A DNA stretch of 64,000 nucleotides from Neptunicoccus cionae. GTDB lineage: Bacteria > Pseudomonadota > Alphaproteobacteria > Rhodobacterales > Rhodobacteraceae. This document shows positions 9,599 through 58,197 of the stretch, one piece after another. The notes under the pieces were generated by a model, which saw only the letters and a list, made by a program, of their open reading frames with translations, made no database searches and was not told the DNA's origin. Made by a program: the position numbers and the translations under genes. Location of the stretch: contig NZ_PKOJ01000004.1 in the NCBI RefSeq assembly GCF_002860325.1, positions 186,001 to 250,000 of the forward strand, given 5' to 3'. Each line of letters begins with the position of its first letter. Position 1 is the first letter of the stretch.

Positions 9599-11025
9599 AC
9601 ATTCTCCTCGGTCTTCACGGCGTTATCGTATTAACCTTTACGCTTCGCATTCTTCTGCGGGACGACCTGTCTCCCCCTGCCCGACTGGCGTGGTTTGTGG
9701 TGTTGAATGTGGTCCCCTTCGGGGGCAGTGCAATTTATTTCCTGTTCGGGGAAATCGATCTAGGCAAGAAGGCGAAACAGGCGCGAAGGCTGGTCTCGCG
9801 CAATATCTATGACCATGCCGGTGATCTGAAAGGCAGGGAAGAGGACGTCAGCACCGACATTTCGCGGCAGTACCGATCAGTTTTCCGCTACGGTGCTTCG
9901 ATAAACGGTTTTTATCCGGTAAACGGCAACCGCGCCGCCCTTATGGCGGACGGGGAGGAAACGCTGGAACGCATGGTTGCGGACATCGATGCTGCGAAAC
10001 ATCACGTGCATATGCTCTGCTATATCTGGCTGGAAGATCACACCGGCACCGATCTTGCCGAGGCATTGATCCGTGCCACGAAGAGAGGCGTGATCTGCCG
10101 CGCGGTGGCGGACGGTCTGGGGTCCCGGCGCTTGATCAAATCCGCGCTCTGGCAGCGGATGAAGGATGCCGGTGTGAAACTGGCGGTGGCGCTTCCGCTT
10201 GACCGGCCCTTGCACACGATCCTCACCAGCCGTCTTGATCTTCGCAATCACCGCAAGATTACAGTTATTGACGGCAAAATCACCTATTGCGGCAGTCGGA
10301 ACTACGCTGATCCGGAATTTCTGGTCAAAGCCAGATACGCCCCGTGGGTAGATATAATGGTACGGTTTGAAGGCCCGATAGTGGCACAAAACCAGCTGTT
10401 GTTCGTAAGTGACTGGGCGCAGGCCACAGGCGAAACGCTGGAGGATCTGGTGGAGCCGGTTGAACCGTTCAAGGATGGTTTTCCGGCGCAGGCACTCGGC
10501 TTTGGACCTGTAGAGCGGCGCGGCGCCACCCCGCAACTGTTTTCAACCGCGATTGCCTGCGCACAAGAACAGATAATTCTCTCAACGCCGTATTTCGTGC
10601 CGGATGGCACCGTACTCGACGCATTGTGCACCGCGGCCTTGCGCGGCGTGCGCGTGACACTGGTCTTTCCCAAACGCAACGACAGCAAGATCGTCGCGGC
10701 TGCCAGTAAGAGTTACTATCTTAAACTGCTGGAGGCAGGCTGCGAGATATACGAGTATAAGGGCGGGCTGCTTCACGCCAAAACCCTGACAGTGGATGGC
10801 CGGTTGGGGCTGGTCGGCTCCTCCAACCTTGATATTCGCAGTTTCGATTTGAACTTTGAAAACAACATCCTGTTTCAGGATGAATCTCTGGCGGGCGAGA
10901 TTTACGAGCGCCAGCAGGTTTATATTTCCGGCGCTGATCCGGTGACACTGATCCATGTGTCAAACTGGCCCTATCACCGGCGGATCTGGAACAATATCAT
11001 CGCCACCATCGGTCCGATCCTGTGA
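9589..11025 (+). CDS. cls: cardiolipin synthase (phospholipase D family)
   Basis: This is a 478-residue membrane enzyme of the two-domain phospholipase D family that makes cardiolipin from phosphatidylglycerol. Two hydrophobic N-terminal segments precede the catalytic region. The two HKD motifs are NHRKITVIDG (near residue 222) and LHAKTLTVDG (near 395), each followed by the usual GS-N sequence (GSRNYAD, GSSNLD). Length fits ClsA-type proteins. It starts at a GTG that overlaps the end of the upstream gene, with GAGG about 12 bp before, so translation is probably coupled to that gene. Confidence 0.88.
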   Translation: MHVNILLGLHGVIVLTFTLRILLRDDLSPPARLAWFVVLNVVPFGGSAIYFLFGEIDLGKKAKQARRLVSRNIYDHAGDLKGREEDVSTDISRQYRSVFRYGASINGFYPVNGNRAALMADGEETLERMVADIDAAKHHVHMLCYIWLEDHTGTDLAEALIRATKRGVICRAVADGLGSRRLIKSALWQRMKDAGVKLAVALPLDRPLHTILTSRLDLRNHRKITVIDGKITYCGSRNYADPEFLVKARYAPWVDIMVRFEGPIVAQNQLLFVSDWAQATGETLEDLVEPVEPFKDGFPAQALGFGPVERRGATPQLFSTAIACAQEQIILSTPYFVPDGTVLDALCTAALRGVRVTLVFPKRNDSKIVAAASKSYYLKLLEAGCEIYEYKGGLLHAKTLTVDGRLGLVGSSNLDIRSFDLNFENNILFQDESLAGEIYERQQVYISGADPVTLIHVSNWPYHRRIWNNIIATIGPIL

Positions 11026-11037
11026 ATCAGCCGCTGA

Positions 11038-12087
11038 CTAACTGCCACCGGCGTCCCGCATTTTTCCGCGCCGCCCGTAAGGGGTTTCGTTGAAACGGGC
11101 CTTATAGTGGCGCGTGAACAAACCGTTAGAGCTGAACCCCGCCGCCATTGCGATTTCTGTCACGTTGAGATTGGTTTCAGTCAACAAGGTGCGGGCGCGA
11201 TCCAGCCGCATGTTGCGATAGACGGTAGCGGGCGTTTCATCGAACAGCTTTTTGAACTGGCGTTCCATTTGACGGCGGGAAAACTCCCCCTCCTCTGCCA
11301 GTTCCTCCAGTGTCAGCGGGTCTTCGATATTGGCCTGCATCGCCTGCAACACCGCCAGCACCTTGGGGTCACGGGAATTGATTGCCTTGGCAATCGAACT
11401 GCGTTGTTCCCGCGCCGGTGACAGATCACCGCCGCTCAGACACATATCCGATACCGCAGTGGCAAAAGCCTCGCCGTAGTCTTCCAGAATAATCGACAGC
11501 ATCATTTCAGTGGCAGCCGCGCCACCGCCGCAAGTGTAAATCCCGCGATCTGCTTCGAAACGGCGGCTGGTGGGCTGCAGATCCGGAAAGGTCTCGACAA
11601 AGCCGGGCTGGTTTTCCCAATGCAGCGTAAATCGGCGGTCCTGCAAAAGACCGGCCCGAGCCAGCGTGGCCGCGCCGGTACAGATCCCCCCCATGTTGCC
11701 ACCGAACCGCGCATGTTTGCGCAATGCCTGCAACACGGCGTCTGACGCAACTTCCGTACCCCGGTTTCCCGAACACACCCAAAGGTGCATATCCGGCGTC
11801 AATCCGTGAAGATCCCCGTGGGCGCCCACGTCCACGCCGGAGGAAGAGCACACCGCATCACCGGTTTCCGACAGCACGACCCAACCATAGAGCGGCTTTT
11901 GCGCCAGCTGGTTCGCAATGCGCAGCGGATCGAGCGCGGAACTGAAGGCCAGAAGTGTGAATTCCGGCAAAAGAAGAAAGCCGAAACGGCGGGTTTCCCT
12001 GACCTGCGCAACCGGAAAACTGAACGCCCCCGCAGGAACAACGTCCACGGGCGCTTTAATAGGCGGGGTATCAGAAGCAGGGCACAT
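11038..12087 (-). CDS. GlxA-family AraC-type transcriptional regulator
   Basis: This regulator of about 349 residues combines an N-terminal DJ-1/PfpI-like amidotransferase-fold domain (about 25-205, beginning FGFLLLPEFTLLAFSSALDPLR) with a C-terminal AraC/XylS double helix-turn-helix (about 240-345, with LTLEELAEEGEFSRRQ and VTEIAMAAGFSSNGLF). The frame opens at a TTG (12108); I prefer the ATG at 12087. Relatives control carnitine, choline, glycine betaine or arginine catabolism. It is downstream of, and in the same direction as, the peptide-type importer genes, separated by 112 bp, so it may be transcribed with them or respond to the same substrate. Ligand unknown. Confidence 0.75.
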   Translation of the reverse strand: MCPASDTPPIKAPVDVVPAGAFSFPVAQVRETRRFGFLLLPEFTLLAFSSALDPLRIANQLAQKPLYGWVVLSETGDAVCSSSGVDVGAHGDLHGLTPDMHLWVCSGNRGTEVASDAVLQALRKHARFGGNMGGICTGAATLARAGLLQDRRFTLHWENQPGFVETFPDLQPTSRRFEADRGIYTCGGGAAATEMMLSIILEDYGEAFATAVSDMCLSGGDLSPAREQRSSIAKAINSRDPKVLAVLQAMQANIEDPLTLEELAEEGEFSRRQMERQFKKLFDETPATVYRNMRLDRARTLLTETNLNVTEIAMAAGFSSNGLFTRHYKARFNETPYGRRGKMRDAGGS

Positions 12088-27580: not shown

Positions 27581-28900
27581 TTACCAACCGGCGAAAGGCG
27601 CTACCTCGGCATCACTGACCAGACCCGCGCGGGCGTCCTTGACGGCTTGCAACAACAGGTCCGCCCCGTCTTTGGCCTGTTGTTCGGTCAAAGTCAGGGG
27701 CGGTGTCAGTTCCAGCACGTTCGATTGCATCCCGACGTAATAAAACACCGCGCCAAGCTGCCATGCGCGATAGACTGTCTTGCGGGCAAGATCCGCATCA
27801 GGGGCATTGGTGTTCGGGTTTACCAACTCCACCCCGATGGCCAGCCCGCGCCCGCGAATATCGCCCACTTCCGGCAGGGACTGTGCCCCTTTCCGGATCT
27901 GTTCCTGTAACAAATCACCAGTGGTTCGTGCGGCATCTGCCAAATGTTCGGCCCCAATGGTATCCAGAACGGCAAGCGCGGCAGCAGCGCAAACCGGATT
28001 GCCGTGCAGGGTCTGCATGGAAAAGGCTGTCGCGTGATCCATCACCCAAGCCGGACCGATCACCGCAGAAATGGGCAAGCCGCCACCCAGCCCCTTGCCA
28101 AGCACCAGTATGTCCGGCGTAAATCCTTCGTGCATGTAGCAATGCAGGGAACCGGTCCGCGCCAGCCCGACTTTGACCTCGTCGCAAACCGTTAGAATGC
28201 CGTATCGGGCGCAAAGCTGGGCCAGTCCGGCAAGAAATCCCGCCGGTGGTACGATCAACCCGCCATCCGCCTGTATCGGTTCCAGAAAGAAACCCGCGAC
28301 TTCCTCTCCCGGACAGGTGGTGTCCAGCAAATGTTCGATGTGATCCAGCAATGCCTGCCCGCTGGCATCCCCGTCAAACGGACGGAAAGGATCGGGATAG
28401 GGCACCAGCGTCAACCCGCCGTCCTTGGCAACACCTTCCTGTGCGCTATGGCCCGACACCGCCATAGAGCCTTGCGTGCCGCCATGATAGGCTCCTGAAA
28501 ACGCCATGATACGGGGCCGTTTAGTCACGACCGGCAAGACCCGCGCCACGGTTTCGTTGGCATCACTCCCCGAATGGCCAATCCAGACACGGCGCTCCGC
28601 CGCCCCCGGAGTCAGGCGCAGCAAGGTTTCGGCCAGTTCCACGGCAATCGCATTGGTACCCGACAGGATAGAGGCCCCCGCCTGCCCCGCCAGCGCGCCA
28701 TCGACCGCTTGGCGCAAGGCCGGATGCCCGTGCCCGAGGCTCGCCGCACCCCAAGAGGCCGACAGGTCCAGCAGGCGACGGCCGTCTTCTTCAATCAGGT
28801 AACAGCCCTCGCCCCGCTCAACCGCCAGCGGAAAGAACCGCAGTTTCTGCAAGGCGGATAGCGCCGCTTCATCGCGGGAATAAAGCGGCGCGTTGGTCAT
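27581..28900 (-). CDS. class III (omega-type) PLP aminotransferase
   Basis: This is a 439-residue fold-type I, class III aminotransferase. The family pattern is visible: DLSASWGAASLGHGHPAL, GHSGSDANETVARV, SGAYHGGTQG, VCDEVKVGLARTG, and the PLP lysine in VLGKGLGGGLPISAV. Relatives act on GABA, ornithine, taurine or other omega-amino acids; the exact substrate cannot be read. I chose the ATG at 28900, which overlaps the upstream stop; an in-frame start at 28954 lies inside the previous gene. It is the last gene of a leftward operon with two C-N hydrolases and an importer. Confidence 0.83.
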   Translation of the reverse strand: MTNAPLYSRDEAALSALQKLRFFPLAVERGEGCYLIEEDGRRLLDLSASWGAASLGHGHPALRQAVDGALAGQAGASILSGTNAIAVELAETLLRLTPGAAERRVWIGHSGSDANETVARVLPVVTKRPRIMAFSGAYHGGTQGSMAVSGHSAQEGVAKDGGLTLVPYPDPFRPFDGDASGQALLDHIEHLLDTTCPGEEVAGFFLEPIQADGGLIVPPAGFLAGLAQLCARYGILTVCDEVKVGLARTGSLHCYMHEGFTPDILVLGKGLGGGLPISAVIGPAWVMDHATAFSMQTLHGNPVCAAAALAVLDTIGAEHLADAARTTGDLLQEQIRKGAQSLPEVGDIRGRGLAIGVELVNPNTNAPDADLARKTVYRAWQLGAVFYYVGMQSNVLELTPPLTLTEQQAKDGADLLLQAVKDARAGLVSDAEVAPFAGW

Positions 28901-29544
28901 GACTTTACCTGCGCCAGTTCGTCGATCAGCTCCTGCGTGGTCATCTGGCGGCAATAGCCTTTGATCGTGCGGATGGAATGATCGTGGCGTTCCTGTGAAT
29001 AGGTCATACAGGCGTCCGTAACTTGGGTGACCAGATAACCCAGATCACAGGCATCACGGATCGCCCCTTCAACACATTGATCGGTAACGATGCCGCTGAT
29101 CACCAGCTGCTTCACCCCGAGATTGCGCAGCACATAGTCAATATGGGTCGATACAAAAACGGAAGAAGAGGATTTCGGAAAGACGATTTCATCGTCACCG
29201 GGGGCGATTTCGTCGATCACCTTTCCGTCCCACGATCCTTTGGGAACGTTGAAACCTGTGATCTTGTAATCAAGGCTGCGGTCGCGCCCGTCTTTTGTCA
29301 GGCTTTCGATTGTAGTGTACAGCACCTCTCCCTTAGCTGCGCGAAACGCAGATTGCAGGCGCTGCATGTTGGGGATGACGCGGGTTTTCATCTGGTCAAA
29401 GAACCAGCCGTATTCCGCATCAAACTCCGCATCCGGCATGTCCTTGAACTCTCCGCCATCGCGACGGGCGGCAAAATTCTGCACGTCAATGAACAGCAGG
29501 GCGGATTGGTCCATCACCAGAGGGACTTCGCGGGTCAGTGTCAT
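28897..29544 (-). CDS. isochorismatase-fold cysteine hydrolase
   Basis: This is a 215-residue member of the isochorismatase-like (CSHase) family, whose members include N-carbamoylsarcosine amidase, biuret hydrolase, ureidoacrylate amidase and nicotinamidase. The catalytic Asp is in LLFIDVQNF and the nucleophilic Cys in IVTDQCVEGAIRDACDLGY. The ATG at 29544 has AAGGAC upstream and overlaps the preceding stop. In a chain with an N-formylglutamate-amidohydrolase-like gene and an aminotransferase, it probably removes an amide or carbamoyl group from an imported nitrogen compound. Confidence 0.8.
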   Translation of the reverse strand: MTLTREVPLVMDQSALLFIDVQNFAARRDGGEFKDMPDAEFDAEYGWFFDQMKTRVIPNMQRLQSAFRAAKGEVLYTTIESLTKDGRDRSLDYKITGFNVPKGSWDGKVIDEIAPGDDEIVFPKSSSSVFVSTHIDYVLRNLGVKQLVISGIVTDQCVEGAIRDACDLGYLVTQVTDACMTYSQERHDHSIRTIKGYCRQMTTQELIDELAQVKS

Positions 29545-30320
29545 TTCAGGTCCTTTTCTACAAATACGCGGGTTGCCTGCTTCAGCCATTCCGCCCAGCG
29601 GGACTGGCCTTCGTCATCGGCAATCTGATCGTTACAGATTTCAATAAGACTGTGGGGCAGACCCTTGGCCTCTCCGTGGCGGGGCACAAACCAGTCGCTT
29701 TCATCGTCGATCTGGTAGGGCTCGTTCAGGCCGATACGCTCTGCAGGCACAAAAGCTTCGAATGCACGGGCCAGAGTACGGGATGTGGTTTGATCATGGC
29801 GAAACAGAAACCCGATGTCCCAGGGGCGGAACTGTCCGGCCATCGAACGCGTGAAACTGTGAACCGAAAGCACGCTTTTACAGGCAGGCTTTCCCAGATG
29901 TTCATCTACGACAGTCTGATAAGGCGTGAAAATCTCGTCTATGCGCTGCTGCCTTTGCGCCGCAGTCAGGTTCAGGTTTGCAGGCACTGTAACACCGTCA
30001 CTGACCACAGGCATTGCGGTCTCGCTTTCGGGCGGGCGGTTGCAGTCAATCACCAGACGGCTGTAGCGTTGCAACACCAGCGTCGCGCCAAGTTGAACTG
30101 CAACCATACGCGCCACGGGCTCTGCGCCGATGTCCCATGCGATATGGGCGCGCAATTCCGCTGGCGTAAGTCCCATATCCCCGAGTTCTTCCGGCACCAA
30201 CCGTCCGGCATGTTCGCACACCAGCACTACCGGATAGGTGCTGTCGGGGTTGATCACCTCGAAAGGGGCAGGGTCTTCCGGCCCAAGCAGCCGGTACTGC
30301 GATGTCGCGGCAAGACTCAT
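29541..30320 (-). CDS. N-formylglutamate amidohydrolase family protein
   Basis: This is a 259-residue zinc-dependent amidohydrolase of the N-formylglutamate deformylase (HutG-type FGase) family. Landmarks are LVCEHAGRLVPEELGDMGL near the N terminus, RLVIDCNRP and SVHSFTRSM. In histidine breakdown this enzyme frees glutamate from N-formylglutamate, but no hut genes are nearby, so a different N-acyl or gamma-linked glutamate is likely. Translation is coupled by overlap to the isochorismatase-like gene downstream, and 2 bp separate it from the permease upstream. Confidence 0.78.
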   Translation of the reverse strand: MSLAATSQYRLLGPEDPAPFEVINPDSTYPVVLVCEHAGRLVPEELGDMGLTPAELRAHIAWDIGAEPVARMVAVQLGATLVLQRYSRLVIDCNRPPESETAMPVVSDGVTVPANLNLTAAQRQQRIDEIFTPYQTVVDEHLGKPACKSVLSVHSFTRSMAGQFRPWDIGFLFRHDQTTSRTLARAFEAFVPAERIGLNEPYQIDDESDWFVPRHGEAKGLPHSLIEICNDQIADDEGQSRWAEWLKQATRVFVEKDLK

Positions 30321-30322
30321 CT

Positions 30323-31216
30323 TTATACTTTCTCCGCTTTCAGGGTCGCTGACGGGATCAACCCGTTCGGACGGAACAACAGGACAAGCACCACAATGCC
30401 AAGGCCGATAGGTTCACGGAATTCCTGCATTTCCGGGGGCAGGAAGGCCGAGAGGTAAATCTCTATGAAACCAAGCAGAAAACCACCGGCCACAGCGCCA
30501 CGCAATGACCCGAGACCGCCGAGAATGGCCGCGATAAAGGCTTTCAGCACCGGCATGAACCCCATCAACGGATCGACCGAGGCCCGCTGACTGACCCAAA
30601 GCACCGCCGCCACACCGGCCAGCAGACCGGACAAGGCAAAGGCGCCTGCAATCACCGTATTGGCGCGGATACCCATCAGGCGCGCCACGGCAAAATCTTC
30701 GGCAGCAGCGCGCATGGCAATGCCGGTTTTCTGGTGTTTCATAAACCAGTCAAGAAACACCAGCATCACCACCGTCGCAATAATCGCAGCAAGTTTGTTC
30801 ACCCCGATCACCATCCCCGCAATATGCACACTGTCCGACAACATCGCCGGTAACAAAACCGGCTGGGAGCGGGTGGAAATCAGGTTCTGGAACAGCACCT
30901 GCAAAATCATCGCCACGGCAAAACTGGTGACAAGCATGGTCGCCCCCGACCCGTTGCGCACAGGGCGAAAGGCGATCCGCTCCATCAGGACAGCCGCAAT
31001 CACCGAGGCCATCAGCGCCAGAGGCACGGCCACCACAAACGAGACCCCTGCAATGCCGCAATACATCAACACATATCCCGCAATGGTCATCAGTTCGCCA
31101 TGGGCAAAATTGATTAGCCCCATGATGGAAAACACCACCGCCAGCCCCAGTGCGAGCAGCGCATAAGTGCCCCCGAGCGCCAGCGCATTCACGGTTTGCT
31201 GTAGGAAAATATCCAT
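30323..31216 (-). CDS. branched-chain-type ABC transporter permease (LivH family)
   Basis: This is a 297-residue inner-membrane permease. It shows the LivH loop SIMGLINFAHGELM near residue 32, a conserved ISTRSQP region, the coupling loop AVARLMGIRANTVI near 170 and the FIAAILGGLGSLRGAVAGG segment near 235. It pairs with the permease half of the fused protein encoded at 33131-34912. It is separated from the LivF-like gene by 3 bp. Confidence 0.88.
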   Translation of the reverse strand: MDIFLQQTVNALALGGTYALLALGLAVVFSIMGLINFAHGELMTIAGYVLMYCGIAGVSFVVAVPLALMASVIAAVLMERIAFRPVRNGSGATMLVTSFAVAMILQVLFQNLISTRSQPVLLPAMLSDSVHIAGMVIGVNKLAAIIATVVMLVFLDWFMKHQKTGIAMRAAAEDFAVARLMGIRANTVIAGAFALSGLLAGVAAVLWVSQRASVDPLMGFMPVLKAFIAAILGGLGSLRGAVAGGFLLGFIEIYLSAFLPPEMQEFREPIGLGIVVLVLLFRPNGLIPSATLKAEKV

Positions 31217-31219
31217 AGG

Positions 31220-31936
31220 TCAGTTCGCTCCTAGATAGGCATCTTGCATGGTGCCGCTGGCTGTCAGTTCTGCGGGCTTGCCCTGCTCTACCACTGCACC
31301 GTTTACCAGCACGTAGGCGCGGTCCGCCACTTGCAGTGTCTTGGCCACATTCTGTTCCACGACCAGCAAGGTAACGCCCTGATCCCGCAATTTCAGGATC
31401 AAATCGAATATCTGGTCTACAATCAGCGGCGCCAGCCCAAGCGAGGGTTCGTCAAGCAACAGCACACGTGGGTTCGACATCAAAGCGCGACCGACGGCCA
31501 GCATCTGTTGCTGCCCCCCTGAAAGGGTGCCTGCGTATTGGTCTTTCCGTTCCAGCAGGATTGGAAACAGATCATAGACCCGTTTATATGCGGTCTCCAA
31601 AGCGGCTTTATCATTGAGGGCAAACGCGCCCATCCGCAGATTATCCGCCACGCTGAGGGTGCCAAAAACCCGCCGTCCTTCGGGCGACAGTGTCAGTCCG
31701 CTCGGGGCGAGCGTTTCAGGCGCTGCACCCGTAATATCCCGCCCCTCGAATTTCACCTGTCCGGAGGAGGTTGGAACAAGGCCGGTAATTGCATTCATGA
31801 TAGAGGACTTACCGGCCCCGTTCGCACCCAGAAAGGCGACGATCTCGCCTTGCCGGATTTCAAAATTCACCCCGCGCACCGCTTTCACAGCGCCGTAGCT
31901 GACGTGAAGGTCGTGGGCAGAAAGAAGCGGTTGCAT
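31220..31936 (-). CDS. branched-chain-type ABC transporter ATPase (LivF family)
   Basis: This is a 238-residue ABC ATPase. Walker A is GANGAGKSS, the signature is LSGGQQQMLAVGRAL, and Walker B runs into LDEPSLGLAPLIV, the LivF hallmark, with the Gln switch residue in LLVVEQNVAKTL. Its ATPase partner is the C-terminal half of the fused permease-ATPase. It sits 12 bp after the substrate-binding protein gene. Confidence 0.9.
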   Translation of the reverse strand: MQPLLSAHDLHVSYGAVKAVRGVNFEIRQGEIVAFLGANGAGKSSIMNAITGLVPTSSGQVKFEGRDITGAAPETLAPSGLTLSPEGRRVFGTLSVADNLRMGAFALNDKAALETAYKRVYDLFPILLERKDQYAGTLSGGQQQMLAVGRALMSNPRVLLLDEPSLGLAPLIVDQIFDLILKLRDQGVTLLVVEQNVAKTLQVADRAYVLVNGAVVEQGKPAELTASGTMQDAYLGAN

Positions 31937-31948
31937 GGGGCGGCGTCC

Positions 31949-33103
31949 TTATTGCATGCGCGGCGCTGGGATCAGCGCTGCATCGGGGCTGGGGGAGCCA
32001 AGGAATTCACGGCCCGCATCCTTCACGCGGATCAGGGACACCTGACGCACGGGCATACCATCCGTGCCCTTATAAGTAATCGCGCTGGTTGCACCCTGAA
32101 CATTTTCCAGATTTGCAATCGCATCGCGCAGCGCTTTCGGATCGGTCGATCCGTCTGCTGCAAGAACTGCAGCCTCGATCACTTTGATCAGGTCATAGCC
32201 CACCGCGTTGAACACAGTTTCGGAATCTTTGCCGGTGGTTTCCTTGTACTTCGCATTGAATGCCTCCAGCGGAGAGCCTTCTTCGGCATAACCGGCTGTT
32301 GTAAAGACTACGCCTTCGCCAGCTTCGCCAAGCGAGAATGTTGTCGGGCTGTCAATTCCGTCAGAGCCGATCATCTGGCTGGTCACACCAGCAGAGCGCA
32401 GGGCTTTCAGCATGGACGGGAAATCAGGTTCGTAGGATGAGGTCATGATGACATCAGGCTGTTCCGGCAGCGCGGCAATCCGTGTGGCGATGGCCGAGAA
32501 ATCCTGCTGGCCGATGGAATGGGTGTCCTGCCCCAGCACGGTGCCGCCCATCTTTTCAAACACTTCCGCAAAATAAAGCGGCATGGTGGTGTACTGGCTG
32601 TCAGGCGAATAGATGATGTAGGCGGTGTCGTGCCCCTGCTCTTGCGCCCAAGCCGCAGAAACCGTTGCCTGTACGTTATCACCGGGGAAGTTGGCGAACA
32701 TATAATCGCCACCGATCATCGGCAATGTCGGAGAAGAGGCACAGGTCGAAATCGCAGGAATTTCTGCCGAGGACACAATCCCGATTGCGGCGAGTGACGG
32801 ATCAGCGTCACAAGGCAGGATCAAGGCCGACACGCCAGTGTCCACCAGTTCCTGCACCGCGATAGAGGTCTGTGCCGCATCGGAACGCACGTCCTTTTCG
32901 ATCAGCTCGATCTTGGTGGTTCCGCCGATCCCGCCGGCTGCGTTGATTTCGTCGATGGCGATGTGGATGCCTTCCATTACCGGCGCATCATAGGGTGCAA
33001 GCCCGCCGGTTTGCGCCGTTGCAGCGCCAATGCGCAGGGTGTCGGCAAAGGAGGGCGCCGCGAGCAGTGCCCCTATAGCTGTGAGAGTAAGTAACTTTTT
33101 CAT
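31949..33103 (-). CDS. branched-chain-type ABC substrate-binding protein
   Basis: This is a periplasmic binding protein of 384 residues, type I fold, with a short signal peptide (MKKLLTLTAIGALLAAPSFA). The start at 33103 has GGAGAAGACA upstream, which favours it over the in-frame ATG at 33115. Family features include APYDAPVMEGIHIAIDEINAAGG and TGVSALILPCDADPS. It lies between the fused permease-ATPase and the LivF-like gene; unlike the other importers here it has no hairpin after it. The ligand is unknown. Confidence 0.86.
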   Translation of the reverse strand: MKKLLTLTAIGALLAAPSFADTLRIGAATAQTGGLAPYDAPVMEGIHIAIDEINAAGGIGGTTKIELIEKDVRSDAAQTSIAVQELVDTGVSALILPCDADPSLAAIGIVSSAEIPAISTCASSPTLPMIGGDYMFANFPGDNVQATVSAAWAQEQGHDTAYIIYSPDSQYTTMPLYFAEVFEKMGGTVLGQDTHSIGQQDFSAIATRIAALPEQPDVIMTSSYEPDFPSMLKALRSAGVTSQMIGSDGIDSPTTFSLGEAGEGVVFTTAGYAEEGSPLEAFNAKYKETTGKDSETVFNAVGYDLIKVIEAAVLAADGSTDPKALRDAIANLENVQGATSAITYKGTDGMPVRQVSLIRVKDAGREFLGSPSPDAALIPAPRMQ

Positions 33104-33130
33104 TGTCTTCTCCATGTTGGTGTGGGCGGG

Positions 33131-34912
33131 TCAGGAATGACCCAGATAGGCTTCTATAACGGCCGGATTTTTTCTTATGTCTTCAGGAACGCCCTGCGCG
33201 ATCTCGGCGCCCTCGTTCAGTACGATGATCCTGTCGCAAAGCTGGTTGATCAGCTTTAGGTCATGATCGACGATCAGCACACCCAGCCCCAGTTCCCCTG
33301 TCAGCTTTTGCAATGTCGCCATCAGATCATCGGTTTCCTCGCGGTTCATACCTGCCGCCGGTTCATCCAGAAACAGAAGCGATGGTTCACAGGCCAGCGC
33401 GCGGGCGATCTCCACTCGGCGCTGGTCGCCGTACGACAGGGTGTTGGCGTCGCTGCCGGCAAACTGGCTGATCCCCATGGCCTGAATAGCTGTTTCGCAG
33501 CGCTCGGCCGCCCGTTCGCCCTTGTTGGTGGACAGCGCCGCAATCAGAACATTCTGATAGACAGTCAGCGTGTCGAACAAGCGGATGTTCTGGAAGGTAC
33601 GGGCAATCCCGTGGTTCGCCACCTCATAGGGTTTCGCCTGCGTCAGATCCGTATCACCCCGTTGGACCGTGCCTTCGCTCGGGGCGAGTACTCCGGAAAG
33701 CATATTCAACAGGGTCGTCTTGCCCGAACCGTTCGGACCGATCAGCCCGAGGATCTCTCCGCTGTTGACTGTGATGGACACATCCCTGACCGCGACAAGA
33801 CCACCAAAACGCATGGTCAGATTCTGCCCTTTCAACGGGGTCGGATCGACAGGTTTCACTTCCCCGACAGTCACTGTTTGCGCCGGATCAACGCGGTGTC
33901 CGGGGAAGAGTCGTTCTTCCAGTTCTTTCAGTCCGGCCAGCCCGTCGGGTTTGCGGAACATGGCAAAGAGAATGATCAGGCCGATGCCTATTTGCGTGGT
34001 GCCAAAGACGGCGGGCATTTCCAGTCCGGCCAGATCGAACCCGCCTTCAAAGCGGCGCAGGATCTCTGTCACCAAGGTGATGGTAACAGCCCCTGTGATG
34101 GCGCCGGTCACTGTGGACATACCGCCCACGATCAGCATCGCCAGCAAAAGAAACGTATCGGCGAAATAGAATTTTTTCGGGCTGAAAGCGCCGAGGAAAT
34201 GGGCGATCAGTGCACCGGACAAGGCCATAATCGCCGCGCTCAGCACCCATGCGATCAGCCGTTCCCTACGGATGTTCACGCCGACCGCTCCGGCAGCAAT
34301 CGCGTTTTCGCGCCCCGCCCGCAACCGCAGCCCCGAAACGGAATCGCGGTAGAGCCTTGCGGCGATCAGTGCCAGAATACAAAAAACCGCCGCCGCCCAA
34401 AGGGTCGTCTCTCGCGGGACACCGAAGAAGGATTGCGAACCGCGGGTTACATCGCGCCAGCCGATGATGACACCATGGGTAATGATCAGCAGGCCAAGCG
34501 TCGCAATCGTCGCTGCTGATCCTTCCAACCGGTTGAGCGCCAGCCCCACAATCAAAGCCAGCACAGAGGTCACAACCACCGCGATCAGGATCGCACTGAA
34601 AAATCCGGTCTCAGCCCCTGCCAGCCAGTCCGGCAGCTTGGGGAGAGTGGCCATTTTCATCTGCGCTGGCAGGGTCAACAGCCCCGAAACATAAGCGCCG
34701 ATGCCCATGAACGACAGATGCCCGAAGCTCAGGATTCCGCTGTTGCCCGAATATACTCCCATTCCGACCACTGCGATCAACGATATGAAAAACACTGTCA
34801 AAATGCGTTCACTCGCAGGGCCAAGCGCCGTTGCCACAAGGGTGGCAGCAAGGGCCAGCACGACAATGCCGGAGAGGGATGCAAGAAGATGTCTGGCAGG
34901 TGAAGTGGTCAT
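33131..34912 (-). CDS. fused LivM permease and LivG ATPase
   Basis: This is a 593-residue fusion of two subunits usually encoded separately. Residues 1 to about 325 are a polytopic LivM-type permease (YSGNSGILSFGHLSFMGIGAY, coupling loop GLRLRAGRENAIAAGAVGVN). A short linker follows, and residues from about 358 are a LivG-type ATPase with Walker A GPNGSGKTT (near 392), signature LSYGDQRRVEIARAL and FLDEPAAGMNREE. The ATG at 34912 has AGGACTTCTG upstream. It is the first gene of the leftward importer and enzyme operon, divergent from rpiR. The fusion fixes a 1:1 link between one permease and one ATPase. Confidence 0.87.
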   Translation of the reverse strand: MTTSPARHLLASLSGIVVLALAATLVATALGPASERILTVFFISLIAVVGMGVYSGNSGILSFGHLSFMGIGAYVSGLLTLPAQMKMATLPKLPDWLAGAETGFFSAILIAVVVTSVLALIVGLALNRLEGSAATIATLGLLIITHGVIIGWRDVTRGSQSFFGVPRETTLWAAAVFCILALIAARLYRDSVSGLRLRAGRENAIAAGAVGVNIRRERLIAWVLSAAIMALSGALIAHFLGAFSPKKFYFADTFLLLAMLIVGGMSTVTGAITGAVTITLVTEILRRFEGGFDLAGLEMPAVFGTTQIGIGLIILFAMFRKPDGLAGLKELEERLFPGHRVDPAQTVTVGEVKPVDPTPLKGQNLTMRFGGLVAVRDVSITVNSGEILGLIGPNGSGKTTLLNMLSGVLAPSEGTVQRGDTDLTQAKPYEVANHGIARTFQNIRLFDTLTVYQNVLIAALSTNKGERAAERCETAIQAMGISQFAGSDANTLSYGDQRRVEIARALACEPSLLFLDEPAAGMNREETDDLMATLQKLTGELGLGVLIVDHDLKLINQLCDRIIVLNEGAEIAQGVPEDIRKNPAVIEAYLGHS

Positions 34913-34941
34913 CAGAAGTCCTGTTTCTTGTAAGGACAGCA

Positions 34942-34994
34942 TTGACAGAAAACTTTCACAGTCAAGATTTTTGTTCCGTTTGACACAAAACTTT
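34942..34994. repeat. 15-bp direct repeat in the divergent promoter region
   Basis: TTGACAGAAAACTTT (34942-34956) and TTGACACAAAACTTT (34980-34994) differ at one base and are 38 bp apart, between the divergent importer operon and rpiR. Each includes a TTGACA. They may be paired regulator sites or a duplicated promoter element. Confidence 0.55.
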
Positions 34995-35008
34995 TAGTTT
35001 GCTTTATT
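34980..35008 (+). promoter_or_regulatory. candidate promoter for rpiR
   Basis: TTGACA (34980-34985) and TTTATT (35003-35008) with a 17-bp spacer point toward the rpiR-type gene, 51 bp before its ATG. The -35 overlaps the second direct-repeat copy, so a bound regulator there would block it. Confidence 0.55.
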
Positions 35009-35059
35009 GTCCGGGACGCCACAGGCTCTGCCGGTAGCGTTGTTAAAAAGGACACCGTC

Positions 35060-35914
35060 ATGGATGTAAAAAGCCGCATAGAAGATATGTCTGCGGAACT
35101 GACCGCGACCGAAAGGCGGCTGAGCGCAAGCCTGCTGGTGGACTATCCTTTTGCGGGGCTACAGCCGATTCAGGAACTGGCGCAAAAGACGCAAACCTCG
35201 TCCCCGTCGATTTCCCGTTTTGTGTCCAAATTGGGTTTTTCGGGCTATCAGGAATTCCAGCGCCAGTTGATAAGCGAACTGAAAGATGGCCAGCGGTCCC
35301 CTGTTGATCTGCAAAAGACCAGCGTGCCGGTGGAAGGGGCTTATCTGACGGGCTTTATGGAACGGGCGCAACGGATCGTTGATGAAACGGCGCAGGCGGT
35401 GACGGATGCCCAGTTTGAACGGGTCTGCACCCTGCTGAGCGATCCAAAACGCAGCGTCTATGTGATCGGCGGAAGGATGAGCGACACTCTCGCGTCCTAT
35501 CTTTCCCGTCACCTGCGCCAAATCAGGGGCAAAGTGTTTCACCTGCCCCCCGATCCCGAAGTTTGGCCGGAATACCTGTTGCGGATGCGCCCGCGCGATA
35601 TTCTTTTGGTGGCGGATTTCCGGCGCTACCAGAAAAGCCTGACGCCGCTGGCTGCCAATGCACAGCGCAACCGCAATGCCCAGATTATCCTGCTGACCGA
35701 CAAATGGATGTCCCCTGTTGCAACCCATGCAACCGAGGTGCTGGCCGTTCCAATCGACAACGGCACGCTGTGGGATTGTTACACCGGCGCAATGGCGCTG
35801 CTGGAAGGGATTGTGACCCGCGTGGCGGAATCAAACTGGGACAAAACGAAAGACCGTATCGAGGCATGGGATGCCAACCGTATCGAATTTGGAGCGAATG
35901 ATGAAAACAACTGA
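35060..35914 (+). CDS. RpiR/MurR-family regulator
   Basis: This is a 284-residue regulator with an N-terminal RpiR helix-turn-helix (about 1-75, with ELTATERRLSASLL and TSSPSISRFVSKLGFSGYQEF) and a C-terminal SIS domain (about 120-260, VYVIGGRMSDTLASYLSRHL). SIS domains usually bind phosphosugars, but many alphaproteobacterial members next to amino-acid importers respond to other ligands. The ATG has AAGGAC upstream. It is divergent from the second branched-chain-type importer operon and overlaps the glutamine-synthetase-like gene, so it probably controls both. Confidence 0.8.
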   Translation: MDVKSRIEDMSAELTATERRLSASLLVDYPFAGLQPIQELAQKTQTSSPSISRFVSKLGFSGYQEFQRQLISELKDGQRSPVDLQKTSVPVEGAYLTGFMERAQRIVDETAQAVTDAQFERVCTLLSDPKRSVYVIGGRMSDTLASYLSRHLRQIRGKVFHLPPDPEVWPEYLLRMRPRDILLVADFRRYQKSLTPLAANAQRNRNAQIILLTDKWMSPVATHATEVLAVPIDNGTLWDCYTGAMALLEGIVTRVAESNWDKTKDRIEAWDANRIEFGANDENN

Positions 35915-37217
35915 ACCGCTGGTCTTTGCAGCCACATCGGATCTTGCCGGCATTACACGGGGCAAGGCCTTTCCCCTGTCAAAGCTGGACAGTCGGATGA
36001 AAAAGGGTGTGGGTTGGACCCCGACCAATGTGATGATCACCTGTTTCGAACATATCGCAGACGGTCCGTTCGGGGCACTTGGCGATCTGTTGCTGAAACC
36101 TGACGCTGATAGTTTGGTGGAACTGAACCTGGGCGAAAAAGCCCCTGTAGAACGCTTTGCCCTTGGCGACATTACCGACCTGAAAGGCGATCCCTGGGAA
36201 TGTTGCACGCGGTCTATCCTGAAATCAGCCCTTGCACGGCTGGAGCAGGTTGGCGGTGTCGGACTGGTGGGCGCTTTTGAGCACGAATTCCAGTTTCGCG
36301 GTGAAGTCCCCGCCGGGCCGCAAGGATATACGCTGAACGGGTTCTCACAGCGTCGTGCCTTCGGGGAATCCCTGATGGAAGGTTTGGAACAGGGCGGTCT
36401 AGAGACCGATACGTTCATGAAAGAGTACGGCGAGAACCAGTATGAGGTCACAAACGGCCCCGCCAAAGGCGTGCGTGTCGCGGATGAGGCGGTTATCCTG
36501 CGGGAAATCACCCGTATGGCCGCCCGCTATCACGATGAAACCGTGACCTTCACCCCGATCCGCGACACCGCGGGCGTTGGCAACGGGGTTCACATTCACA
36601 TGAGCTTTACCGACGCGAAAGGTGCACCGGCAACCTGGGATGCGGACGGGCCATTTGGAATGTCCAAAGTATCGGCCTCATTCGTGGCAGGGATCTTGAA
36701 ATACCTCGACAGTATTATCGCGCTGACCGCCCCTTCCGCCGTATCCTACCTGCGACTGACCCCGCACCGCTGGAGCGCGGCTTTCAACAATCTGGGGTTC
36801 CGCGACCGTGAAGCCTCCGTCCGGATCTGCCCTGTCACATCGGATGATCCCGAAAAGATCGCCCGTCAGTACAACTTTGAATATCGCGCGGCAGATGCTG
36901 CGGCTTCGCCCCATCTGGCACTGGCTGCAATAATCCACGCAGGGTGTCAGGGGATCGAAGAAAACCTGCCAGCCCCTCCTGTGACACAGGAAGATCTGTC
37001 CGAACTGCCGCCCGAGGCACTGGCTGAACGGGGGTATGTCCGCCTGCCTCAAACTCTCGAAGAAGCGCTGGAGCGGTTTGAAACCAACGAAACCGTCTGT
37101 GGCTGGTTCCCTGAACGGTTTGCATCGGTCTATACCGCTCATAAACGGGGGGAGTTGAGCGTCGTTCAGGATATGGATGAAGCCCAACGCTGCGCAGCCT
37201 ACGAGGCGGTTTACTAA
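35901..37217 (+). CDS. glutamine synthetase-like gamma-glutamyl ligase
   Basis: This is a protein of about 438 residues in the glutamine synthetase superfamily. It has the DLAGITRGKAFPLSK beta-grasp region near the N terminus, the glutamate/ATP site GVGNGVHIHMSF near 225 and the YLRLTPHRWSAAFNNLGFRDR active-site strand near 285. It differs from housekeeping GlnA in length and motifs, so it is probably a gamma-glutamyl-amine or amide ligase of the PuuA/GlnT/FluG kind. I chose the second of two adjacent ATGs, six bases after GGAG. It overlaps the rpiR stop by 14 bp and has a terminator-like hairpin after it. Confidence 0.75.
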   Translation: MKTTEPLVFAATSDLAGITRGKAFPLSKLDSRMKKGVGWTPTNVMITCFEHIADGPFGALGDLLLKPDADSLVELNLGEKAPVERFALGDITDLKGDPWECCTRSILKSALARLEQVGGVGLVGAFEHEFQFRGEVPAGPQGYTLNGFSQRRAFGESLMEGLEQGGLETDTFMKEYGENQYEVTNGPAKGVRVADEAVILREITRMAARYHDETVTFTPIRDTAGVGNGVHIHMSFTDAKGAPATWDADGPFGMSKVSASFVAGILKYLDSIIALTAPSAVSYLRLTPHRWSAAFNNLGFRDREASVRICPVTSDDPEKIARQYNFEYRAADAAASPHLALAAIIHAGCQGIEENLPAPPVTQEDLSELPPEALAERGYVRLPQTLEEALERFETNETVCGWFPERFASVYTAHKRGELSVVQDMDEAQRCAAYEAVY

Positions 37218-37255: not shown

Positions 37256-38095
37256 TCATGCGGTATTGCGCCCAAGCCCCAGAATCGTGCGGGCCTGTTG
37301 CCATGTGGCGACAGGACGTTCGTATTTTTCACAAAACTCTGCCGCACGGCGTACCAATGCAGCGTTGGACGGGGCAAGCGTGTCGCGGTCAAGACGCACG
37401 TTATCTTCCAGCCCTGTGCGGGCATGGCCACCGCTGGAAATCGACCACTCGTTTAACACGATCTGCTGCGCACCAATCCCTGCCGCACACCACGCCGCGC
37501 CATCACCAAACAGGCGCTTAACGGTTTTGATATAGAAATCGAAAACGTCACGATCCACCGGCATGGCATTTTTCACACCCATCACGAATTGGACATAAGG
37601 GGTATCCCTGATCTGGCCGTTCTTGTGCATCTCTGCCGCTTTCAGAATATGGCTAAGGTCAAAAGCTTCCACTTCAGGCTTCACGCCGTATTCCAGCATC
37701 TCGGACGCCAGCCAGTCCACCAGTTCCGGCGGATTTTCATAGACACGTGTCGGGAAATTGTTTGATCCGACGGAAAGCGATGCCATATCCGGCGCAAGCG
37801 AAAGCATACCGCCCCGCGTTTTGCCCGCCCCCGACCGGCCTCCGGTGGAAAACTGGATAATCATGCCGGGACAGTGTTTTTCCAACCCCTCTTTCAACCG
37901 CGCGAATTTCTCGGGATCGGCAGAGGGCGTCTCGTCGTCGTTGCGCACATGGGCGTGGCAGATGGTTGCCCCTGCTTCAAACGCTTCCTGCGTGGATTCC
38001 ACCTGTTCGGCCACTGTTATCGGGACTGCCGGGTTGTTCGCCTTGGTCGGCAGGGAGCCGGTGATCGCGACGCAGATGATGCAGGGGTTTTCCAT
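37256..38095 (-). CDS. beta-keto acid cleavage enzyme (BKACE, DUF849)
   Basis: This is a 279-residue TIM-barrel zinc enzyme of the BKACE family, founded on 3-keto-5-aminohexanoate cleavage enzyme. Family members condense a beta-keto acid with acetyl-CoA, giving acetoacetate and a new acyl-CoA. The N terminus IICVAITGSLPTKANNPAVP and the metal motif CHAHVR (H47, H49) are clear, as are the glycine-rich FSTGGRSGAG and LSVGSNNFP. It lies 8 bp after pcaG in the pob-pca operon, so beta-ketoadipate is the natural guess for its substrate, which would yield succinyl-CoA and acetoacetate. Confidence 0.82.
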   Translation of the reverse strand: MENPCIICVAITGSLPTKANNPAVPITVAEQVESTQEAFEAGATICHAHVRNDDETPSADPEKFARLKEGLEKHCPGMIIQFSTGGRSGAGKTRGGMLSLAPDMASLSVGSNNFPTRVYENPPELVDWLASEMLEYGVKPEVEAFDLSHILKAAEMHKNGQIRDTPYVQFVMGVKNAMPVDRDVFDFYIKTVKRLFGDGAAWCAAGIGAQQIVLNEWSISSGGHARTGLEDNVRLDRDTLAPSNAALVRRAAEFCEKYERPVATWQQARTILGLGRNTA

Positions 38096-38103
38096 GATGC
38101 CTC

Positions 38104-38718
38104 TTAAATGTCGAAAAAGATGGTTTCTTTCGGTCCTTGAAGATGAATGTCAAAACGATAGCTGCCGTCGGCAGATTTTTCGGCCAGCAGCGTCGGGATG
38201 CGGTTCTGGTGCTCGATCCGCGTCAGGATCGGATCGGCGGCATTGGCGTCGGCTTCATCCGCAAAATAGATACGGGTGTGAAGACCGAGGTTTATGCCCC
38301 GCGCCACGATCCAAACGGTGATATGGGGCGCCTGCATGCGACCGTCGGGAAACGGCACAGCGCCGGGCTTTACGGTTTCAAAAGTGAACTCGCCCGTGTT
38401 CATATCACCGGGCGAGCGTCCCCATCCGGTGAAGTTCGGATCGGCCTGCCCGCGGGTTTCATTGGCAGAGGCGAACAGCCCCGCCGCATCCGGTTGCCAG
38501 ATTTCGACCATCGCATCCCGCAGCGGTGTGCCGGTGCCGTCATAGACGACGCCTTTGATGGTGATCTCCTCTCCCTTCACAGGACCGGTTTTCATCGAAG
38601 TACCAAGATCACCCCCGTAAATTTCAATGCCGGTAAAATTCGGCGTACAACCGATGTGCACATAAGGGCCGGCGGTCTGGCTGGGGCTTTCTTTCAGGTA
38701 GTCGAGCCGTTGGGTCAT
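38104..38718 (-). CDS. pcaG: protocatechuate 3,4-dioxygenase alpha subunit
   Basis: This is the 204-residue alpha subunit of the intradiol dioxygenase that opens protocatechuate to 3-carboxy-cis,cis-muconate. It starts with KESPSQTAGPYVHIGCTPNF, the typical PcaG opening, and contains VYDGTGTPLRDAMVEIWQPD and the AGLFAS/GWGRS segments. The alpha subunit lacks the full iron ligand set, as expected. It follows pcaH by 2 bp, with GGGGCTGTAACC before the ATG. Confidence 0.9.
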   Translation of the reverse strand: MTQRLDYLKESPSQTAGPYVHIGCTPNFTGIEIYGGDLGTSMKTGPVKGEEITIKGVVYDGTGTPLRDAMVEIWQPDAAGLFASANETRGQADPNFTGWGRSPGDMNTGEFTFETVKPGAVPFPDGRMQAPHITVWIVARGINLGLHTRIYFADEADANAADPILTRIEHQNRIPTLLAEKSADGSYRFDIHLQGPKETIFFDI

Positions 38719-38720
38719 GG

Positions 38721-39458
38721 TTACAGCCCCTCCTTGCGGTTCTCAAAATAGGTCTGCCGCCGTCCGCGCAGCACCATGTCAAACTTATAGGCGCGGCTGT
38801 CCATCGGCACGGTGCGGTTCATGTCCAGCAGCGCCGTCAGCGCATCCACCGCTTCCTGACTTTTCAGAACCCCGACAATCGGGCAGAGTTTGATATGCGG
38901 GTCGCCTTCAAAATACATCTGGGTGATCAGACGCTGGGCAAACCCGTGACCGAACACGGAAAAATGGATGTGGGCGGGGCGCCAGTCGTTCATACCGTTG
39001 GGCCAGGGATAAGGGCCGGGCTGGATTGTGCGAAACTCGTAAGAGCCGTCTTCTGCCGTGATCGTGCGCCCGCAGCCGCCAAAGTTCGGGTCAAGTGCGG
39101 CCTGATAGGCCTCTTTCTTGTGGCGATACCGACCGCCTGCATTGGCCTGCCAGAACTCCACCAGCGCATTTGGTACGCCGCGCCCGTTTTCATCGAGCAC
39201 GCGACCGTGCACAATGATCCGCGGACCAATGGCAGATTCACCCGGTTTGGCGTAGTTCAGGATCAGATCGTTATCAAGCTCGCCCAGAATGTTATGCCCG
39301 AACACCGGAGAGGTTTCTTCGGACAGGGTTGTGGGAAAGGACAGCAACGCCGCCTGCGGACTGCGTTTGATGCTGGTTTTATAAGGGGGCGTCAGCGCAT
39401 CGGGCTGCCAGTTCCGGTCCCGCGGGATAAAACCGCCAGTGGGTTTGATCGGGCTCAT
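38721..39458 (-). CDS. pcaH: protocatechuate 3,4-dioxygenase beta subunit
   Basis: This is the 245-residue catalytic beta subunit. The ferric iron ligands can be followed: a Tyr in [12 protein letters not shown], a Tyr in GPYPWPNG, and the two His of [11 protein letters not shown]. The sequence [22 protein letters not shown] is typical of PcaH. Its ATG overlaps the pcaC stop (ATGA), and pcaG follows directly, consistent with equal production of the two subunits. Confidence 0.92.
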
Positions 39459-57412: not shown

Positions 57413-58197
57413 TGCCACCCACCACCGATTCAAACCGCACGAACCAGTCCACTGTGGCCGCTTTCGCGGTGCTTGAGGAAATGGCCCAACACACCGAAGC
57501 GGCCCGCGTGACGGATATCGCCAATGCGCTCGGAATGCCGCGCGCGCGCACCCACCGCTATCTGCAAACGCTAGTGCAACTGGGCTATGTGCGGCAGGAC
57601 GCAGCGACCGAACGCTATCGTCTGACACTGAAACTGTTCCATCTGGGGCAGGCCATTGCGGACGGCACCCAACTGACAGCCGTGGCGCGCCCTGTCATGG
57701 CTGCCTTGCGCGATAGTATTCAGCAGACCGTCACCCTGTCCATCCCCGAAGAAGCAGGCATGCGGGTGATTGACATTGTGCGGGTGGAAACCCCTGTGCA
57801 GATCATCACCCGACCGGGTGCGCTGTTGCCGCTGCACAGTTCCGCGCAGGGAAAGGTGGCGCTGGCCTGGGGAAACAAGTCCCTGCTGGATCGGTTCAAC
57901 GCGCGGCTGGAAGCAGGCGATCCCGAACTGGCCGGACTGGACCGCGACACCCTGCAAAGCCAAATCGCAGAAGCGCGGTCCAAGGGTTGGGCAATGGCCC
58001 CGCAGGAAATCCTGCCCGGAGTGAACGCCATCTCGACACCTGTCTTTGACAGTGACGGGCAGTTCGTCGCCACGATCACTGTTGTCGGTTCTGTCCAGCA
58101 GATCACATCCGAACCCGACTCGTCCTACATCCGCGCCGCACTTGATGCAGCCCGCGAAATTTCGACCAATTTAGGCTATCTGGAGTACCCCGTATGA
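57412..58197 (+). CDS. IclR-family regulator
   Basis: This is a 261-residue IclR regulator: an N-terminal winged helix (about 15-75, AAFAVLEEMAQHTEAARVTD, then GMPRARTHRYLQTLVQLGYV) and a C-terminal effector domain with the LPLHSSAQGKVALAWG signature near 140 and a GVNAISTPVFDSDGQ segment. The start is coupled to the DctM-like stop, with GGAGG upstream. It is embedded in the operon it probably controls, via the inverted repeat at 54055-54074. Relatives respond to aromatic or short-chain organic acids. Confidence 0.86.
   Translation: MPPTTDSNRTNQSTVAAFAVLEEMAQHTEAARVTDIANALGMPRARTHRYLQTLVQLGYVRQDAATERYRLTLKLFHLGQAIADGTQLTAVARPVMAALRDSIQQTVTLSIPEEAGMRVIDIVRVETPVQIITRPGALLPLHSSAQGKVALAWGNKSLLDRFNARLEAGDPELAGLDRDTLQSQIAEARSKGWAMAPQEILPGVNAISTPVFDSDGQFVATITVVGSVQQITSEPDSSYIRAALDAAREISTNLGYLEYPV

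Follow-up and report, generated by a model that had tools for sequence, protein, structure and literature searches.

What compound is degraded by the enzymes encoded at positions 27581-37217 of a 64,000-nucleotide stretch of Neptunicoccus cionae DNA (the window, bases 186001-250000 of contig 12 in a source assembly of 17 contigs)? In a preliminary description this cluster was read as an importer, an FGase-like enzyme, an isochorismatase-fold enzyme and a class III aminotransferase, faced by an RpiR regulator and a glutamine synthetase (GS)-like ligase, and was compared with the Puu route of putrescine degradation. ORF calling and scans with Pfam and NCBIfam models upheld the open reading frames, their strands and their families, except that the presumed aminotransferase is a member of a racemase family. 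We see an even chance that the locus encodes a regulated pathway which breaks down alpha-amino acid amides or alpha-amino lactams by way of gamma-glutamylation.

The pyridoxal phosphate (PLP) protein (27581-28900, minus strand) falls in Pfam Aminotran_3. Its best matches among solved structures are three racemases (5m46-type, 3dxw/2zuk and 6gio; E 1e-140 to 1e-155), namely alpha-amino-epsilon-caprolactam (ACL) racemases and an amino acid amide racemase, with 58.6% identity to the R. freirei racemase (5m46) and 56.9% to the A. obae racemase (3dxw). Other amino acid racemases follow (6e-79 and 3e-75), and only then the first gamma-aminobutyrate aminotransferase (5.5e-69), so that by sequence the protein stands nearer to the characterised racemases than to the aminotransferases. 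It scored under the cut-off of every NCBIfam model listed (25 of 69). Two residues, the Asp of EPIQxDGG and the Lys of DEVK, are present in the window protein and were exchanged for Ala in two deposited variants (5m4b and 5m4d); presumably they have a catalytic role. Of 15 homologues with at least 50% identity, 14 showed the Lys motif and 12 the Asp motif, while 15 other class III proteins of the same list had neither motif (12 with DEVQ, one with DEVV, two with no match). In a Klebsiella plasmid homologue of 45% identity both motifs are slightly altered (EPILSDGG, DEVKMG). This protein is therefore a member of the ACL/amino-acid-amide racemase family by sequence, and probably interconverts the D and L forms of an amino amide or lactam. 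As a consequence, the proposed transamination step is not supported and the analogy with PuuE breaks down; alpha-amino amides or lactams become a likelier class of substrate than omega-amines. Both amides of amino acids and alpha-amino lactams are described as substrates of ACL racemases (PMC7431475, PMC11391342); one such racemase was used for lysine production in the 1970s (PMC7431475), and an ACL racemase had been purified by 1982, as the title of a reference in PMC6061476 tells. No natural pathway for an ACL racemase is described in the part of the caprolactam-racemase literature covered, although one might still be in print. The industrial "amidase process" pairs an ACL racemase with an amidase (account in PMC7431475) and does so without glutamylation, whereas in the window the racemase gene naturally shares its operon with those of a glutamyl ligase and an FGase.

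The GS-like ligase (GSL; PF00120, Gln-synt_C) is encoded on the plus strand at 35898-37217. Its listed open reading frame (from 35871) runs over the end of the RpiR gene at 35914, and an ATG at 35898 or 35901 suits the homologues better. Its best structural-database match is PA5508 (4hpp) of Pseudomonas aeruginosa (39.7% identity, E 2.6e-96; next match 1.3e-29). It lies well under the cut-offs for glutamine synthetase (GlnA, 165.9 versus 429.15 bits) and gamma-glutamylputrescine synthetase (PuuA, NF045547, 244.2 versus 650 bits); the latter score agrees with the earlier suggestion that the substrate may differ from putrescine. In the alignment, both the window protein and PA5508 carry Trp at the site of the Glu in "GYEAP" of the B. 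subtilis GS, a residue that we take to belong to the ammonium site. With PA5508 as best match and this Glu replaced, GSL falls into the PA5508/"GoaS" group of ligases.

The FGase-family protein (FGA, 29541-30320, minus strand, PF05013) is a candidate for the enzyme that would release the glutamate. It scored far under the cut-off for the N-formylglutamate deformylase HutG (TIGR02017, 31.5 versus 278.75 bits), and histidine degradation was ruled out by this score. Its predicted model matches 2odf (TM 0.88), with weak matches to zinc carboxypeptidases, N-acetylmuramoyl-L-alanine amidases and a poly-gamma-glutamate-bound YndL structure (E 5.7e-4), and 27 residues are invariant across 14 window-type and five other FGases. 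We compared 80 FGase loci from genomes of the same order: the 20 that match best apart from the window itself, plus 60 more listed from even-numbered genomes in rank order, leaving out eight weaker listed even-numbered matches and all lower odd-numbered ones. A GS-like gene stands beside the FGase in 46 of the 80. In 14 loci it is a GSL of the window type, every time together with the isochorismatase-fold gene; in 32 loci of a second type it is from another GS-like clade, with RpiR, with a TRAP permease (31/32) and never with the isochorismatase-fold gene (0/32). The 34 loci without a GS-like marker (L087 included; L and G numbers denote loci and genomes) were set aside. There is a precedent for such a pairing: in the use of ethanolamine, hydrolysis of gamma-glutamyl-glycine has been predicted to be the task of an FGase-family enzyme (PMC6529630, PMC9397018). 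The earlier idea of a gamma-glutamylation route in which the FGase-like enzyme frees glutamate thus gains support from the gene neighbourhoods, from the distance to HutG and from this precedent.

The ethanolamine route just mentioned (GlnA4, SCO1611-SCO1615; predicted in Chromohalobacter salexigens as well) likewise has a GS-like amine ligase and a predicted FGase splitting a gamma-glutamyl amino acid, according to the same two sources. In contrast, scans of the window cluster genes revealed no alcohol or aldehyde dehydrogenase; the cluster has an isochorismatase-fold hydrolase and a racemase instead, and its ligase belongs to another GS clade. A separate FGase cluster in the genome that holds the window (L109, G000:C1:564000-580800) is of the second type and encodes RpiR, FGase, a TRAP importer, a GS-like ligase, an aldehyde dehydrogenase (Aldedh) and an iron-type alcohol dehydrogenase (Fe-ADH), with a Peptidase_C26/PuuD-like protein nearby. 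Because of its two dehydrogenases it looks like an ethanolamine gamma-glutamylation type; homarine was considered as its substrate and rejected, since Fe-ADH and Aldedh suit the ethanolamine route better.

The third enzyme, an isochorismatase-fold cysteine hydrolase (ICH, 28897-29544, minus strand, PF00857), is here a proposed amidase or lactamase. Its residues D20, K124 and C157 are invariant in 17 aligned homologues, and it is the best conserved of the three proteins FGA, ICH and GSL. The structure nearest to its predicted model is the uncharacterised 3kl2, followed by RutB and by triuret and biuret hydrolases, at 17-25% identity in the fold matches. Although it has fold and catalytic triad in common with RutB and biuret hydrolase, it scored far under both curated cut-offs (TIGR03614 for RutB, 73.3 versus 377.95 bits; NF050097 for BiuH, 60.5 versus 370 bits), which rules out membership in the pyrimidine (RutB) or cyanurate (BiuH) routes; their chemistry is retained below as a rival. 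The FGA/ICH and ICH/PLP junctions are 4-base ATGA overlaps in which the start lies on the stop of the preceding gene. For this reason the ATG codons at 29544 (ICH) and 28900 (PLP gene) were chosen as the most likely starts, and the overlaps are a sign that translation of FGA, ICH and racemase is coupled.

With FGA as query, FGA, ICH and GSL occurred together in 23 of 54 named loci. When only the 23 loci with an FGA match of at least 45% identity are counted, the three were together in 21, the exceptions being L048 (FGA alone) and L075 (where the match is partial and lies at the end of a contig). This triad arrangement exceeds chance. RpiR accompanies it in 20 of the 23 triad loci and Liv-type transporter genes in 22. 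With ICH as query, 25 matches were obtained in 21 of 398 genomes of the phylum, and within 10 kb of them lay GSL in 21 cases and FGA in 18. GSL was thus seen with FGA in 23 named loci, in 14 loci of the 80-locus set (partly the same places) and in 18 of the 25 ICH neighbourhoods, a repeated link of a GS-like ligase to a candidate glutamate-releasing hydrolase, as would be expected of a gamma-glutamylation pathway. Six triad loci (L033, L036, L058, L083, L084 and L085) also hold an FmdA_AmdA-family (acetamidase/formamidase) gene, and the single such protein scanned fell under the formamidase cut-off; since that family includes an L-amidase (PMC7431475), these genes fit an amide route.

Racemase genes lie mostly beside genes of the module. 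Among the 398 phylum genomes it was found in eight, all of them among the 21 with ICH, and seven of the eight copies lie at most 10 kb from ICH, the exception being that of G170 (L181). A search of 247 Rhizobiaceae genomes with the R. freirei racemase gave matches in 23 (19 new loci plus G392, G412, G219 and G170), of which 22 had ICH, 21 had GSL and 20 had FGA within about 10 kb. The misses are G170, with none of the three near its racemase; G537 (L200), which lacks FGA and whose racemase match covers residues 74-433 only; and G545 (L210), where nothing but an ICH-like match (39%) was found, which was counted as ICH. In L193-L196 the four racemases share 85-87% identity with the enzyme solved from R. 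freirei and the order is RpiR-ICH-GSL-FGA-racemase. Plasmids carry the genes as well: ICH lies within about 9 kb of the racemase in all 37 plasmid records with a racemase (28 read from match rows, one of them across the record's origin, and nine by tblastn). The 37 are not independent events, because many are near-identical strains. As for ICH, 103 plasmid records contain it, 46 of them named Klebsiella, and a DNA search with the Klebsiella ICH gene against E. coli genomes gave no match. The only Klebsiella record examined, plasmid pKOX101_1 of Klebsiella michiganensis (L175), encodes a variant module (racemase 45%, APC permease, GSL 31%, RpiR, FGA, ICH 64%) flanked by insertion sequences.

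The question of whether GSL is regulated together with the other arm was approached through the intergenic region. The RpiR-family regulator (HTH_6 plus SIS; PF01418 and PF01380) is encoded at 35060-35914 on the plus strand, followed by GSL, and both face the minus arm across the shared region 34943-35059. In 886,203 bases (L022-L075) the motif TTTTCANAGTCAA occurs exactly 12 times, and all 12 occurrences are in front of cluster genes, ten between RpiR and the transporter and two upstream of FGA. The window has CTTTCACAGTCAA, one base off this motif, with TTGAC 14 bases on. Among 26 regions upstream of RpiR the motif is exact in 12, with TTGAC 11-15 bases later in ten of these, and not exact in 14; the other regions without it are mostly from loci with a different transporter or lower similarity. 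The region probably holds a common operator/promoter element of both arms, and conservation of the motif in part of the relatives favours co-regulation of GSL with the other arm.

On this basis the following route can be proposed. The Liv-type importer would take up the amide or lactam, and the racemase, placed in its family by sequence, would swap D and L forms so that both are usable. GSL would join glutamate to the alpha-amino group at the expense of ATP, giving gamma-Glu-NH-CHR-CONH2; ICH would then cut the carboxamide or open the lactam, giving gamma-Glu-NH-CHR-COOH and ammonia; and FGA, by analogy with the predicted gamma-glutamyl-glycine FGase, would cleave the gamma-glutamyl amino acid to glutamate and the free amino acid. 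Glutamate would be recycled, the net gain being ammonia and an amino acid, and RpiR would govern both arms from the shared region, as conservation of the motif suggests. Ligase and hydrolase are likewise assigned to families by sequence, and we infer the import step, the identity of the amino acid and the action of ICH before FGA. Since an amide already has the oxidation state of an acid, neither oxidase nor dehydrogenase is needed; this would explain why PuuB and PuuC, whose absence had been pointed out before, are indeed not found in the cluster. An amino amide or lactam as substrate would give every gene a role.

Several observations weigh against this proposal. The racemase is present in only eight of the 23 triad loci and eight of the 25 ICH neighbourhoods, and since most triad loci are without it, the core route may not need a racemase; conversely, the racemase of G170 (L181) has no triad nearby. 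Both GSL and FGA are missing from the 10-kb surroundings of four of the 25 ICH matches: L156 (the G287 match at 57920), L157 (G290 contig-10, with 7.5 kb on one side), and L172 and L173, two ICH-like proteins at 38% and 36%. In L160, L163 and L164 GSL is present and FGA was not found, nor was RpiR in L163 and L164. Among characterised enzymes ICH is nearest in sequence and fold to ureido hydrolases, and amino amides go unmentioned in the account of PA5508 preferences that PMC6478659 gives. The optional racemase and the resemblance of ICH to ureido hydrolases are the main doubts. As a separate observation, L160 (G116) has, at the place of the missing FGA between ICH and GSL, an amidohydrolase-2 (FluG N-terminal-like) gene (10042-11226); it is possibly a non-orthologous replacement.

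Of the other explanations, the one that survives best, although we hold it to be unlikely, is that the PA5508-like GSL glutamylates catecholamines or aryl amines and FGA removes the glutamate again, ICH and racemase being separate activities of the same regulon. A paper citing the original study (PMC6478659) reports that PA5508 favours bulky amines, for instance catecholamines, over polyamines, and that polyamines do not induce it. Moreover, the GSL proteins of L165, L166, L168 and L162 are 72, 72, 65 and 59% identical to PA5508, and in these loci the order is RpiR-ICH-GSL-FGA with no racemase match. An APC permease comes next in L168, and an open reading frame of L162 at that place starts alike; PA5510 is likewise given as an APC transporter (PMC2542419). 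By analogy with these loci, in the PA5506-PA5510 region that holds PA5508 (PauA7), PA5507 may be ICH-like and PA5509 FGase-like; the window has a Liv-type ABC importer and a racemase instead. A route for bulky amines would leave ICH without a clear role, although no enzyme of the triad is better conserved, and would explain neither the racemase link nor the missing further oxidative enzyme.

A somewhat smaller chance is given to ICH being a RutB/BiuH-like carbamoyl (ureido) hydrolase, so that an N-carbamoyl amine or amino acid would be degraded, with GSL protecting the amine and FGA freeing the glutamate. The best ICH matches among characterised enzymes, which are RutB, biuret or triuret hydrolases, point that way, and the ornithine cyclodeaminase (OCD)-family genes near L156 (9472-10542) and L166 (3808-4959) could follow citrulline-like or ornithine-lactam substrates. 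Against it stand the RutB and BiuH cut-offs, which ICH misses by far, and the substrates of ACL racemases, which in the accounts cited above are amides, lactams and esters, ureides not being among those described there. Hardly more doubtful is a special case of the amide or lactam proposal, in which the natural substrate is not an open amide but the lactam of ornithine or lysine, and ICH is a lactamase. It draws on the action of ACL racemases on alpha-amino lactams (as described in the sources above) and on the two scanned OCD proteins of L156 and L166, near triad or ICH loci, which pass the ornithine cyclodeaminase cut-off (583.7 and 566.1 versus 350). OCD was scanned in only these two loci and recognised by eye near L165 and L171, none lies in the window, and open amides fit equally. 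Finally, a variant putrescine or omega-amine pathway with a true class III aminotransferase is very improbable: the PLP protein is in Aminotran_3, GSL is related to PuuA and a GS-like first step is common to both, but the racemase assignment, the missed NCBIfam cut-offs of PLP protein and ligase, and the lack of any PuuB, PuuC, PuuD or PuuE equivalent in the window cluster all speak against it.

The remaining genes of the minus arm, which in order of transcription reads LivM-LivG fusion, binding protein, LivF, LivH, FGA, ICH and PLP enzyme, encode the importer. They are the LivM-LivG fusion of permease and ATPase (33131-34942; PF02653, BPD_transp_2, plus PF00005, ABC_tran), the periplasmic binding protein of branched-chain amino acid/amide type (31949-33115; PF13458, Peripla_BP_6), the LivF-type ATPase (31220-31936; PF00005) and the LivH-type permease (30323-31216; PF02653). 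The PDB matches of the binding protein are Liv-type and HAAT binding proteins, and its alignment was too ambiguous for use when carboxylate-site residues were sought. Beyond the cluster, a BKACE-family enzyme (37256-38095, minus strand) lies beside pcaG/pcaH (38104-39458); it scored 497 against a cut-off of 350 for the NCBIfam 3-oxoadipate:acetyl-CoA acetyltransferase, so protocatechuate breakdown may end in 3-oxoadipate cleavage. A tie of the module to the neighbouring pan and pca genes was rejected, since both flank the triad in L022 and L023 only, among L022-L075 (L076 is the same place as L023). In other genomes, a fusion of about 1000 residues (APH kinase, M23 and class III PLP domains) adjoins the module, as at L026:11472-14516; by BLAST it was also found in L027, L028, L033, L071, L078-L082, L085, L179 and L183, Pfam having been run on L026 only.

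Taken together, the module is real, recurrent and partly plasmid-borne, and it adds a variant to the known gamma-glutamylation routes; no literature treating FGase, isochorismatase, GS and RpiR genes together was found in our searches. That it is the natural pathway of ACL/amino-acid-amide racemases in Alpha- and Gammaproteobacteria, and that FGase-family proteins are at the same time general gamma-glutamyl hydrolases partnering GS-like ligases, is a joint claim whose chance we put a little below even. In the plasmid records examined, racemase-family genes are annotated as aspartate or class III aminotransferases and FGA as N-formylglutamate amidohydrolase, which would be misannotations. Because the racemase is so tightly and repeatedly linked to the ligase, the cysteine hydrolase and the FGase, its role can be tested with four small enzymes, and clusters of the PA5508 type gain a suggested function. 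If the proposed reading is true, amino acid amides or lactams become candidate nitrogen sources, and the module would offer a natural pathway for a well-known industrial racemase.

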